DNA of 64,000 nt. Origin: Thermaurantimonas aggregans (GTDB taxonomy: Bacteria > Bacteroidota > Bacteroidia > Flavobacteriales > Schleiferiaceae). Below the pieces are notes generated by a model. It made no database searches and was not told the DNA's origin. It saw nothing but the letters and a program-made list of their open reading frames with translations. The position numbers and the translations under genes were made by a program. The stretch is from NCBI RefSeq assembly GCF_003851885.1, contig NZ_BHZE01000004.1, positions 62,001 through 126,000 on the forward strand, given 5' to 3'. Positions 4,253 to 52,435 of the stretch are shown in pieces (position 1 is the first letter of the stretch; each line of letters begins with the position of its first letter).

Positions 4253-5246
4253 GTTTTATACAACTCATCTTCAATGATTTTTGAAAAATAAAAATCGAAA
4301 ACTTTTTAAAGACATGTTTCAAAAAGGAAAACACATTTTTAACCATCAACGTATTACTTTTAAATGCTTTTCGAGAATGACTACTTCCTCTGGAAAGTAA
4401 AAACTGTTCAATCATTATGCAACCCTTTAAGAAGGAATAACTGTATAGTGTGGGTAACTTCAATTGAAATATACTGAATAAGTACCCGAAAGGTTAATAG
4501 ATCGCTTTTTTAAAGTGTTTTATCCGCTGGTAGAGTAGAGAGTTTTTTACAACAATTTTAGACATTCAGACAAAATCTTACAAAATACACTTCTAAATTC
4601 CAATCTGCTAATCAAAAAAATTCATATGATAAGAAATGTCATTATAGATGGAAAAAGGGGCTTATGTGCTTATTAGCAATTAAAGAATTTCTGAACGATT
4701 TTGGATTTCTTTTTTTTTACTGCTGAAAAAAAGTTCTTCCTCCTGTTATTCCTTCTTAAATACAGCACTGCATTCTTATTGAAAAAACTTAATACAATCC
4801 AGGTTAAAAATTGCGTTTATTAAACTATGTGCAAGAAAATTTCAAATCTACTTGATAACCGATTGAACCATATTATTTCTAAAATCTTTAAAATTTTTAT
4901 GGCATTTTCGGATTTTGTCCGAAGAATTATGATTTCAAAACATTCTCTTTCATCACATCACATAAATTCTAAGGATTTACTAAAAACTTAATCGACACAG
5001 ATCCCTATATAGGATTAACACTGCATTTAATAATTCTGATTAAGTATAAAATTAAAAGTATTAAAACCGCTAAACCAGGTGGTTATGGCAATCTATCTTT
5101 CAATGAATTATTAAGTTGTACAAAGCTCAAAAACACACGCGAAGATTTAAAAAAATTAAACAAGTGATTGTAGATCAATTAAAACATTTTAATTCACGAT
5201 TAAAATAGCCAAGATTTACTACTTTTACGCGTCAGCTTGCACATCG
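4253..5246. other. AT-rich intergenic region of about 1 kb
   Basis: Stops are dense in nearly all frames and I recognise no gene, RNA or repeat. The only coding-like stretch is a frame open from about 4973 to a TGA at 5165-5167. Its last 35 codons encode a plausible peptide (KPGGYGNLSFNELLSC, then NTREDLKKLNK), but it has no in-frame ATG. It may be a decayed gene fragment. Confidence 0.45.
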
Positions 5247-39096: not shown

Positions 39097-39885
39097 ATGG
39101 TGAACGAAGAGGTAGATATACTGAAAAAAAGTGAGCAAGTACCTGTATTAGTAGACTTTTGGGCACCTTGGTGTGGACCTTGCCGATTCTTAGGGCCAAT
39201 TATCGAAGAATTAGCCCGAGAAGCCAATGGTCTTTGGCAGCTGGTGAAGGTGAATACCGACGAGCAGCCTGAGTTTATGCACAAATACCACATTCAGGGT
39301 ATCCCAACGATGAAAATGTTTTACAATCGTCAGGTAATTGGCGAGCAGGTAGGCGCACTGCCAAAACACGAACTAAAGCGCTGGATCGAATCACTTATCC
39401 CCACGCCCGAAAAAAAAGAATGGACTGCTCTATCACAGCGCTTAAGTTCAGTAAACGAACAAGAAGGCAAAAAACTTTTGGAAGAATTTATTTCACGCTT
39501 TCCGTCACATCAGGAAGCTAGAATTTTATGGTTGAGATCTGTAGTTTGGCATGAACCTCAGAAAGCATTAAACCATTTACGTGAATGGAAAGACCTGGGG
39601 GCTCATACTGATCTGGTACAAGACATTGAGGCACTGGCACGTCTAATGACTTTTAATCCCGAAGGAAAAACAAAAGTAGACGATATGCTCAGTGAAGCTG
39701 CTGCACACTTAAGATCAAACGACATTGAAGGGGCACTCCGTAAGTTGGTCGATAGCATAATGTATGACAAACACGCCCACGACGAGTTGGCCCGTAAAGC
39801 CTGTATTGCCATTTTCCATCATTTAGGTGAACAACATGAACTGACAAAAGTCTGGCGAAGGCGTTTCAGTATGGCACTCTATTGA
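39097..39885 (+). CDS. Thioredoxin-domain protein with C-terminal TPR-like region (YbbN/CnoX-like)
   Basis: From the ATG at 39097 the product has 262 residues. The thioredoxin domain (about 1-105) has the active site 'WAPWCGPCRF' and the cis-proline segment 'GIPTMKMF'. The rest is helical with TPR-like repeats ('LSEAAAHLRSNDIEGALRKLVDS') and a terminal 'IFHHLGEQHELTKVWRRRFSMALY', which resembles the C-terminal domain of YbbN/CnoX co-chaperones. CnoX proteins protect chaperone clients from oxidation; here the CxxC is intact, so redox activity is likely. A terminator follows. Confidence 0.9.
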   Translation: MVNEEVDILKKSEQVPVLVDFWAPWCGPCRFLGPIIEELAREANGLWQLVKVNTDEQPEFMHKYHIQGIPTMKMFYNRQVIGEQVGALPKHELKRWIESLIPTPEKKEWTALSQRLSSVNEQEGKKLLEEFISRFPSHQEARILWLRSVVWHEPQKALNHLREWKDLGAHTDLVQDIEALARLMTFNPEGKTKVDDMLSEAAAHLRSNDIEGALRKLVDSIMYDKHAHDELARKACIAIFHHLGEQHELTKVWRRRFSMALY

Positions 39886-39916
39886 AGAGCATCTGAATTT
39901 TCAGGTGCTTTTTTTG
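39886..39916 (+). terminator. Intrinsic terminator after the thioredoxin gene
   Basis: AGCATCTGA / TCAGGTGCT (9 bp with one G-T pair) with loop ATTT, then T7. Confidence 0.85.
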
Positions 39917-39930
39917 TTTAAAAATATAAT

Positions 39931-39976
39931 ATTCATAATTAAACAACATCGACATTCATAATTAAACAACATCGAC
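39931..39976. repeat. Perfect 23-bp tandem repeat (two copies) upstream of the rhodopsin gene
   Basis: The 23-mer 'attcataattaaacaac' plus 'atcgac' occurs at 39931-39953 and again immediately at 39954-39976 with no mismatch. It lies about 160 bp before the rhodopsin start. Confidence 0.9.
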
Positions 39977-40104
39977 AGCCGAATAAAAGTATTTAAGCTT
40001 ATTTATTGTGGCAAATTTGATTTTATCATCTATATATCAATATTCTAAAAATTATCAATTGAAATTATTTTACCCAAGTAAACTTTTTTAGTATTTTTTA
40101 TGTT

Positions 40105-40134
40105 TAATGTTTGCATATAAAACGTTAAACATTA
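40105..40134. promoter_or_regulatory. Inverted repeat at the rhodopsin start codon
   Basis: TAATGTTT (40105-40112) and AAACATTA (40127-40134) are perfect inverted repeats with a 14-bp spacer. The right arm includes the A of the start codon. The left arm overlaps the best -7-like box, AATGTTTG (40106-40113). Confidence 0.5.
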
Positions 40135-40892
40135 TGAAAACAAATTTACTTGATGTCGTCACCATTCCGGTAGATGATCCGGTGGCTTTCACTTTCTTTA
40201 CCGGCTACATGTCAATGTTTGCCGCTTCGGTCTTTTTCTTTTTTGAGCGTTCGAGAGTACCAGAGAAGTGGAAAACTTCGCTGCTGGTATCTGGATTGAT
40301 CACTGGTATTGCTGCCGTACACTACTACTACATGCGCGATTACTACGCCAGCACGGGAAGCAATCCAACAGCCTTGCGCTACATCGATTGGACACTTACT
40401 GTACCTCTGATGTGTGTAGAATTTTATTTATTGACCAAACCAGCTGGAGCTACTAAAGGACTTATGTGGCGATTAATCATCGCTGCCGTATGGATGCTTG
40501 TATTTGGATATATTGGCGAGGCCTTTAATCCGGAAGGAGGAAGTACAAGTCATTCCGTTACTTATGGAGTGCTTTCAACCTTAGGATACGTTTACATTTT
40601 ATACTTGGCCTGGATGGGCGAAGTAAAACAGCTGGCCGAAAAAACGAACAATCCCACTATTATAAGAGGTATCCGCACATTATCATGGTTTATTTTAGTT
40701 GGTTGGGCTATCTATCCAATTGGATACATGTGTATGCCTGGTGGCTGGCTCAATATCGCATTTGGCTGGCAGCCTAGTGCTGTTGATTTATTCTATAACA
40801 TAGCCGATGCTATAAATAAAATTGGATTTGGACTAGTGGTGTATAACATCGCTATCGATGATCTTTCAAAGGCAAAGGTTCTAGCTGCTTGA
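40134..40892 (+). CDS. Proton-pumping microbial rhodopsin (proteorhodopsin/xanthorhodopsin type)
   Basis: The ATG at 40134 gives a 252-residue, seven-helix protein. Retinal would bind Lys229 in 'ADAINKIGFG', with Asp225 as second counterion. Helix C reads 'RYIDWTLTVPLMCVEFYLL': Asp85 as proton acceptor, Thr89 and Glu96 as proton donor make the DTE triad of outward proton pumps (not the NQ or NTQ motifs of sodium and chloride pumps). Met93 sits at the colour-tuning site, where Leu or Met gives green and Gln gives blue absorption. His63 matches the conserved His of proteorhodopsin. Gly145 in helix E occupies the position of the carotenoid-antenna fenestration. No blh or carotenoid genes are in the window. 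Confidence 0.96.
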   Translation: MKTNLLDVVTIPVDDPVAFTFFTGYMSMFAASVFFFFERSRVPEKWKTSLLVSGLITGIAAVHYYYMRDYYASTGSNPTALRYIDWTLTVPLMCVEFYLLTKPAGATKGLMWRLIIAAVWMLVFGYIGEAFNPEGGSTSHSVTYGVLSTLGYVYILYLAWMGEVKQLAEKTNNPTIIRGIRTLSWFILVGWAIYPIGYMCMPGGWLNIAFGWQPSAVDLFYNIADAINKIGFGLVVYNIAIDDLSKAKVLAA

Positions 40893-40912
40893 AAGGTTAT
40901 AGCTTAAAAATT

Positions 40913-40947
40913 AAAAGACCCTATGTGTCTGATACATAGGGTCTTTT
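40913..40947. terminator. Bidirectional intrinsic terminator after the rhodopsin gene
   Basis: AAAAGACCCTATGT / ACATAGGGTCTTTT stem with loop GTCTGAT, flanked by A and T runs. It can also serve the convergent barrel gene. Confidence 0.9.
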
Positions 40948-41012
40948 TGCTTTTTACAAATCCTGTTAATATTTCCAATATCTAAACTTTATTCCTTTTG
41001 TTGATTTAAGTG

Positions 41013-51364: not shown

Positions 51365-52435
51365 ATGAGAAAGTATCGCTATCTGCTTTCTTTTACTATC
51401 ACGTTTTCTACCATATTAGCTTTTCAGTCAGATGGTTGGTTATCCTTTGCTACAGTGATGTATGCCTTTGGTATTTTGCCCTTACTTGAATTAGTACTCC
51501 CGGCAGACCCATCTAATTTTTCTGATAGCGAGGAAACAATTTTAGCTAAAGACAAGCTTTTTGATTTTTTTATTCTGGCTGCAGCAGCTAGTCAATTCGT
51601 CCTTTTTGGATATTTCTTGCTCAATATTGCAACGGTCGATCCTTCACAGCTTACATTTTGGGGCAGGTCGCTTTCCTTCGGAGTGCATACTGGAGTTATG
51701 GGAATTAACGTAGGACATGAGTTGGGCCATAGAGTCGAAAAATGGATGCAGCGCATCGCCATGGGGCTTCTTTCCACCTCGCTTTATGCACACTTTTTCA
51801 TAGAGCACAATTTCGGACATCACAAAAATGTAGGCACTCCGCACGATCCCTCTTCTGCCCGCTTAAACGAACCGATATATAGCTTTTGGCTGCGGGCAGT
51901 TAGCCAGGGCATTATTTCAGCGTACAACATTGAAAAAAATCGACTCCAACGGAAGAAACTGCCCGTGTTCAGTGTTCACAATCTTTTTTTAATACTCATG
52001 CTGGTGCAGACTGCACTCTTAATAGGTGTTTACGCAATTTTTGGCAAAACTGTATTACTCGCTTTTCTCCTCTCTGCCACTACCGGATTTCTATTGCTCG
52101 AAACTGTAAATTACATTGAACATTACGGACTTACCCGCAGAAAAGTAAGCGACCGCAGGTATGAAGATGTAAACGTAACCCACTCGTGGAACTCTGATCA
52201 TATCATCGGCCGCAGCGTGCTCTTTGAACTCTCAAGACACAGCGATCACCATGAAAATCCTTACCGTAAATATCAAATTTTAAAACACTACGACCAAAGT
52301 CCACAAATGCCCACAGGATACCCAGGAATGATGCTGCTTACGCTCATTCCTCCGCTTTGGTTTTATGTAATGAACAGAAAAATCAATCAATTACATGGAG
52401 ATCAGCAAGGAAGAATTGCTACGCAAGTTCAATGA
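51365..52435 (+). CDS. AlkB-like membrane alkane/fatty-acyl hydroxylase
   Basis: The 356-residue protein has six membrane helices and the three histidine boxes of AlkB-type di-iron monooxygenases: HELGH at 118-122, HNFGHH at 148-153 and HSDHH at 292-296, with 'NYIEHYGLTR' between. AlkB uses O2 and rubredoxin electrons to hydroxylate medium-chain alkanes. Several Bacteroidota carry such genes without known alkane use, so a fatty acid or other lipid substrate is possible. No rubredoxin gene is nearby. The thioesterase gene overlaps its end by 41 bp. Confidence 0.88.
   Translation: MRKYRYLLSFTITFSTILAFQSDGWLSFATVMYAFGILPLLELVLPADPSNFSDSEETILAKDKLFDFFILAAAASQFVLFGYFLLNIATVDPSQLTFWGRSLSFGVHTGVMGINVGHELGHRVEKWMQRIAMGLLSTSLYAHFFIEHNFGHHKNVGTPHDPSSARLNEPIYSFWLRAVSQGIISAYNIEKNRLQRKKLPVFSVHNLFLILMLVQTALLIGVYAIFGKTVLLAFLLSATTGFLLLETVNYIEHYGLTRRKVSDRRYEDVNVTHSWNSDHIIGRSVLFELSRHSDHHENPYRKYQILKHYDQSPQMPTGYPGMMLLTLIPPLWFYVMNRKINQLHGDQQGRIATQVQ

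Follow-up and report, generated by a model that had tools for sequence, protein, structure and literature searches.

The rhodopsin gene of Thermaurantimonas aggregans (Bacteroidota) is preceded by two copies of a palindrome whose other full copies in the genome lie before the genes of a CarH-like regulator and of carotenoid synthesis. As read from the DNA, this palindrome common to rhodopsin, CarH-like and crt genes is the new element here. Collectively, the observations make it rather probable that the gene encodes a carotenoid-binding pump of the NM-R1 type and that a CarH-controlled palindrome is common to opsin and carotenoid genes; pumping, carotenoid binding, CarH binding and the response to light are the parts that we infer. 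Evenly balanced, in our judgement, is the wider proposal that, across Bacteroidota, one palindrome places the genes of both rhodopsin and carotenoid under the direct control of a CarH-type B12 photoreceptor, and that this regulon persists in the lineage of T. aggregans with retinal coming from outside or from an unrecognised enzyme.

The window, i.e., the whole stretch of 64,000 nucleotides that was analysed, contains the rhodopsin gene on the forward strand at 40134–40892. Its product of 252 residues matches the Pfam family Bac_rhodopsin with 140 bits (cut-off 24.6) and is the sole such match in the genome, which comprises 2,671,880 bases in 57 contigs and is rated 99.93% complete. The codons of Asp85, Thr89, Met93, and Glu96 (40386–40421, forward strand) specify what we take to be the counterion, a member of the triad, the spectral tuning site, and the proton donor, respectively. 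Residue count and alignment place the retinal Schiff-base lysine, Lys229, at 40818–40820 and the fenestration glycine, Gly145 (GGA), at 40566–40568, both on the forward strand. The earlier note had named these six residues and the reading frame, and both its count and its coordinates proved exact. The protein has the Bac_rhodopsin fold, the Schiff-base lysine, and the Asp/Thr/Glu triad of a proton pump, and it is probably a light-driven outward pump, presumably a green-absorbing proteorhodopsin of the NM-R1 type found in Bacteroidota. An alternative start codon is present at 40107, 27 bases upstream. Since this ATG falls within the proximal palindrome, the more probable start is at 40134.

The palindrome, TGTTTAA-N16/17-TTAAACA, is 30–31 bp long and occurs in exactly five full copies in the 2.67 Mb genome. 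Two precede rhodopsin, a distal one at 39915–39945 and a proximal one at 40101–40131, two bases before the start codon, and both have a spacing of 17. One further copy lies before the CarH-like MerR/B12 gene and two before the sigma-crtID-crtB-idi genes (contig C26, 15170–15200, 16282–16311, and 16336–16366). The shorter core GTTTAA/TTAAAC, at spacings of 15–17, was found at nine places, compared with five for a reversed control; at the four core places outside the full copies, the outer T or A is missing, and three of these places are inside open frames. A 24-base direct repeat at 39931–39977 (starts 39931 and 39954, with a one-base overlap) covers the right arm of the distal palindrome. Because terminator-like hairpins stand both before and after the gene, rhodopsin appears to form a separate transcription unit. 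One hairpin is 3′ of the upstream gene (39884–39913, forward strand), and the other, 3′ of rhodopsin at 40913–40947, is T-tailed on both strands; the scan around rhodopsin gave four such sites, with 0.8 expected. A sigma-70 scan of 39880–41010 found four sites (4.6 expected), and the Bacteroidota sigma promoter TTTG-N-TANNTTTG matched twice in the window (1.97 expected), neither time near rhodopsin. The upstream gene (39097–39885, forward strand) encodes a thioredoxin-like protein, as judged by eye from its WCGPC motif, and adjoins rhodopsin in the sister genome G014 too, where this neighbour is 55% identical and rhodopsin 94%.

Of the 110 rhodopsin loci that were fetched, 108, i.e., all but two with fewer than 150 bases, provided an upstream stretch. 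The core at spacings of 8–24 occurs in 25 of these stretches, 23 times at spacing 16 or 17, compared with an average of 0.2 and never more than 2 in mononucleotide shuffles. No copy was present in the downstream flank (443,020 bases, counted from 800 bases after each gene starts). For the full palindrome at spacing 16 or 17, an exact copy was found in 23 of the 108 upstream stretches, a copy with at most one mismatch in 40, and one with at most two in 53; the corresponding means of first-order Markov shuffles are 0.0, 0.3, and 4.2, and the downstream-flank rates predict 0.00, 0.11, and 1.02 copies. In the 80 named loci (853,640 bases), 37 of the 39 copies with at most one mismatch and a spacing of 15–17 are within 300 bases upstream of rhodopsin. 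Exact copies precede rhodopsin in the cultured species Marivirga arenosa, Hymenobacter amundsenii, and H. artigasi. G014 carries two one-mismatch copies before rhodopsin and, at its CarH-like locus, two exact copies and one with one mismatch. Of the CarH-like loci, 30 were fetched, and the exact core is present in 23, own genome included. Matches had been obtained in 82 of 99 genomes, and the 30 loci represent the best of them; the others include many weak matches to the MerR domain.

The occurrence is patchy. Even at two mismatches, 55 of the 108 upstream stretches have no copy. Among the 30 loci of the own and closest genomes, six carry a copy with no more than one mismatch (the window included), six have one with two mismatches, and 18 have none, although one of these 18 has only 23 bases upstream. 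In T. aggregans itself, no palindrome lies beside crtD-cruF-crtZ (contig C13) or crtY (contig C3); two-mismatch matches elsewhere comprise three in the examined stretch of C13 and two in the window, at 4315 and 46634. It follows that the site may have been gained and lost, or may be degenerate beyond two mismatches. Nor is the palindrome shown to be common to blh, since 11 of the 14 blh loci scanned have no copy, one copy is inside blh (L008), and another is the very copy that precedes a rhodopsin (L141, genome G015). In G095, where rhodopsin and blh are divergent, a one-mismatch copy (L007, 1317–1347) is located between the two genes and could serve both. Within the open-licence literature, we found no report of the palindrome or of CarH control of rhodopsin; the string TTGTTTAA occurs in 11 papers, and in the one examined, on proteorhodopsin, it sits inside a printed gene sequence.

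On contig C26, the genes for the MerR/B12 regulator, a sigma factor, CrtID, CrtB, and Idi run in one direction. The regulator has a MerR helix-turn-helix and a B12-binding domain and matches the light-dependent CarH 5c8d with 74 bits. Aligned Trp140, Glu150, His151, and His189 are kept in 30 of 30 CarH-like sequences, own included, and we take the Trp, Glu-His, and His to be the B12-site residues of CarH. The similarity to CarH is nonetheless moderate, and the protein is named CarH-like because it falls below the NCBIfam CarH equivalog cut-off (94.4 bits, compared with 400). CarH tetramers are reported to bind operators in the dark and to fall apart in green light (PMC9614035), and LitR/CarH proteins are described as negative regulators of light-inducible genes (PMC6739363). 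By analogy, the palindrome would be a control site common to rhodopsin, the gene of the B12-dependent regulator, and sigma-crtID-crtB-idi; most likely, CarH would hold these promoters off in the dark and release them in light, so that the opsin and its carotenoid would be made together.

Control by the sigma factor is an alternative: instead of being the operator of the CarH-like protein, the palindrome might serve as promoter for the ECF-type sigma factor whose gene directly precedes crtID, much as with a light-induced sigma. The sigma-70-like gene, with regions 2 and 4, adjoins the regulator in 27 of the 30 CarH-like loci, own included, and 26 of the 30 have crtI within reach. Moreover, a spacing of 16–17 bases suits −35/−10 boxes, and 30 of 45 palindrome copies are 33–96 bases before the start codon, as estimated by alignment to the window protein. 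By the same estimate, however, 13 of the 45 copies end 2–10 bases before the start, a position from which a −10 box would direct initiation within the coding sequence. In addition, the flanks outside the searched letters are two-fold symmetric, with a correlation of 0.89, compared with 0.42 in direct orientation, although this symmetry is weaker at the base immediately inside the arms. Such symmetric flanks speak, short of proof, for an operator bound by a dimer more than for a sigma promoter, and we regard the sigma promoter as rather unlikely.

Light control by CarH/LitR is known from carotenoid regulons. These systems resemble that of T. aggregans in the MerR and B12-binding domains, in the key residues, and in their place beside crt genes; unlike these regulons, the palindrome of T. 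aggregans also precedes rhodopsin, for which no report was found in the open-licence literature. In Chryseobacterium lacus, another member of the Bacteroidetes, carotenoid genes respond to light, and the authors speculate on a CarA/LitR-like regulator (PMC7064467); the regulator is unproven there, and the available text of that paper mentions no rhodopsin. The 2013 Dokdonia genome paper states that the regulation of proteorhodopsin expression needs further work (PMC3587595). Carotenoid-binding proteorhodopsins are a recent discovery. If CarH-like control is true, green light, sensed by CarH and expected to be absorbed by the rhodopsin, would switch on the pump and the carotenoid together. The shared palindrome offers a direct and cheap test of coordination in the cultured species with an exact copy before rhodopsin.

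Of the solved structures, the one nearest to the pump carries a carotenoid. A sequence search of the PDB placed 9jov and 9jou on top with 249 bits, followed by green and blue proteorhodopsins (163–173 bits), while the xanthorhodopsin-type chains 3ddl, 7ytb, 6nwd, and 9wfa scored 80–102 bits. Membership of the xanthorhodopsin clade was ruled out on this difference from the NM-R1 chains. An AlphaFold2 model built with 31 aligned sequences has a mean pLDDT of 89.4 and a pTM of 0.86, and its top match in VIA-align is 9jou, the zeaxanthin-bound proton pump NM-R1 (Z 30.1, RMSD 1.7, 230 residues, 54% identity). Ranks 2 to 8 are within 1.4 Z units, with several ties, and it is the identity (31–43% there) that separates NM-R1, not Z alone. 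NM-R1 (9jou, with 9jov as a near-identical chain) has the same fold, DTE triad, Met93, helix-E glycine, and Lys. Yet the two proteins share no more than the 54% given above, the T. aggregans rhodopsin has five additional residues in the loop that leads into helix E, and a Tyr precedes the helix-E glycine where NM-R1 has Trp. Kin4B8 and Salinibacter xanthorhodopsin likewise share the fenestration glycine and DTE, but they score only 96 and 80 bits, respectively, compared with 249 for the NM-R1 chains.

According to the earlier note, Gly145 occupies the position of the antenna glycine of xanthorhodopsin, where green proteorhodopsin has Phe, and both placements are borne out. Gly145 pairs with Gly153 of Kin4B8, and in a MAFFT alignment its column is Gly in xanthorhodopsin, Gloeobacter rhodopsin, thermophilic rhodopsin, and 9jov. 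The phmmer alignment, like a gap-free count back from the conserved WxGE, sets Gly145 opposite the Phe of green proteorhodopsin; only MAFFT, through a two-residue gap, puts a Pro in this column. The structural comparison that the note proposed leads to zeaxanthin-bound NM-R1 as the nearest structure, with Gly and no bulky residue at the fenestration. The fenestration residues given for Kin4B8 include Thr157, Tyr204, Ser208, and Tyr209 (PMC13093654). Thr157 and Tyr204 are matched by Thr149 and Tyr198 of the T. aggregans protein, while Ser208 and Tyr209 align, in a loosely aligned part, with Pro202 and Gly203.

The glycine is not a special feature of this protein, being present in all 110 fetched loci, own included. 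Gly145, Asp85, Thr89, Met93, Glu96, and Lys229 show no variation in any of the 111 aligned rows. These rows comprise the window, 80 named loci, and 30 loci of the own and closest genomes (one of which is the own gene); as some genomes may occur in both sets of loci, the rows do not represent 109 independent relatives. A glycine is also reported for all Bacteroidota proteorhodopsins of subtree I (PMC13043013). In these alignments, the fenestration glycine is thus real but ordinary, a trait of the Bacteroidota lineage.

The genome encodes what is predicted to supply a carotenoid for such an opening. CrtID (736 bits), CrtD (667 bits), and Idi are above their NCBIfam cut-offs; phytoene synthase (CrtB) and CruF are above the Pfam cut-offs of their families but below those of NCBIfam, and the same holds for the lycopene cyclase (CrtY) on contig C3. 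Contig C13 encodes CrtD, a CruF-type protein, and a CrtZ-like protein. The crtD match (L004, C13:57744–59207) shows two internal TGA codons in the homology search, yet it is an uninterrupted 512-residue frame in the list of open reading frames. The CrtZ-like protein matches no Pfam or NCBIfam model; we take its His motifs to support its identity as CrtZ. A tblastn search matched it to 109 plasmid records, 95 of them from Pantoea, at less than 60% identity, and in the one Pantoea match that was examined, the gene adjoins crtB, phytoene desaturase, and crtY. CrtZ-like matches are present in 75 of the 99 genomes searched, own and G014 included. A 292-residue hydroxylase on contig C6, the sole PF04116 match in the genome, was not taken as CrtZ. 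With crtID, crtB, crtY, cruF, crtD, and the crtZ-like gene, the genome carries a predicted pathway to hydroxylated carotenoids, the absence of which the earlier note would have counted as a refutation. Nonlabens makes myxol with crtI, crtB, crtY, crtD, cruF, and crtZ types plus crtA-OH (PMC11855829). T. aggregans has the same crtI, crtB, crtY, crtD, cruF, and crtZ types, split over three contigs, whereas the Nonlabens genes are clustered. Given the CruF, CrtD, and CrtZ set, a monocyclic carotenoid with a 3-hydroxy group, of the saproxanthin/myxol kind, is at least as likely a product as zeaxanthin. The earlier note had put forward zeaxanthin, which is not favoured as the sole candidate because CruF and CrtD suggest that the end product is monocyclic; the binding of a hydroxylated carotenoid, the note's broader claim, agrees with the homology to NM-R1 and with the crtZ-like gene and pathway.

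Carotenoid binding by the rhodopsin is well supported by homology and would be expected for the lineage. The helix-E glycine would leave a side opening, in which the ring of a 3-hydroxylated carotenoid from the same cell would sit beside the retinal. The glycine at the fenestration, from which an antenna had been proposed, fits such binding, although antenna may be the wrong word for the role. The bound carotenoid could instead alter the photocycle or stability and pass little or no light energy to retinal, a reading that we consider just as probable as its opposite. A 2025 Nature Microbiology study of carotenoid-rhodopsins in marine Bacteroidota speaks, by its title, of “photocycle-accelerating” pigments, and Kin4B8 binds salinixanthin without energy transfer (PMC13093654). 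The Ser208/Tyr209 pair of Kin4B8 is not kept in the T. aggregans rhodopsin. On the other hand, the glycine, Thr149, and Tyr198 match Kin4B8, where hydroxylated carotenoids do transfer energy, as the same paper reports.

The earlier note had suggested a search for blh, and none was found in the genome: PF15461 (Blh/Brp) had no match, neither beside rhodopsin nor elsewhere, in a search run on this genome alone, with no control genome matched in that run, and RPE65-type oxygenases (PF03055) were absent in a search in which two control genomes matched. Of 99 genomes, own included, 41 have a PF15461 match (one weak and below the cut-off) and 46 a rhodopsin match, and 40 of these 46 have both. The remaining six are that of T. 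aggregans (G000), G014, G012, G026, G040, and G042; the rhodopsin of G040 is a 38-residue fragment, and that of G042 is at a contig end. In these six, a search with a profile of 11 Bacteroidota Blh proteins yielded nothing at E values up to 10, while the positive controls G015, G053, G009, and G027 matched, G053 and G027 being rows of the profile itself. G000 and G014 are near-complete genomes of different genera with a rhodopsin and no recognisable blh/brp. G012 and G026 (L038 and L039) belong to another genus with a rhodopsin and no PF15461 match, G026 being only 84% complete. A rhodopsin without an adjoining blh is not rare, since a Blh-like match lies near only 72 of the 110 rhodopsins (the examined stretches differ in length); from these searches, a genome without blh is less common.

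One might thus regard the opsin as an unused relic in a cell unable to make retinal, as would fit the missing PF15461, PF03055, and Blh-profile matches in a genome rated 99.93% complete and the missing PF15461 and Blh-profile matches in G014. However, the rhodopsins of G000 and G014 differ at 78% of their synonymous sites and at 6% of the nonsynonymous ones (pS 0.776, pN 0.059, used instead of dN/dS because synonymous sites are saturated), so that the protein has evidently been under strong purifying selection without blh. Two palindromes also precede rhodopsin in both genomes; those of G000 are exact, and each of those in G014 has a single mismatch. Moreover, the actinobacterium Aurantimicrobium minutum contains retinal and pumps although it has neither blh nor diox1, and an unrecognised enzyme was proposed (PMC7734400). 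This species resembles T. aggregans in having a rhodopsin and no blh, but it belongs to a different phylum and its protein is xanthorhodopsin-like; in the available text, such Bacteroidetes are mentioned only as data not shown. A relic is accordingly very improbable, and a functional opsin implies that retinal would be either taken up or made by an unrecognised enzyme. Genomes of this kind, with no known retinal gene, make a case for seeking the missing retinal source, which, together with the shared control site, is a point for specialist follow-up. Elsewhere in the window, 51365–52435 encodes a His-rich membrane protein that, by eye, resembles alkane monooxygenase.
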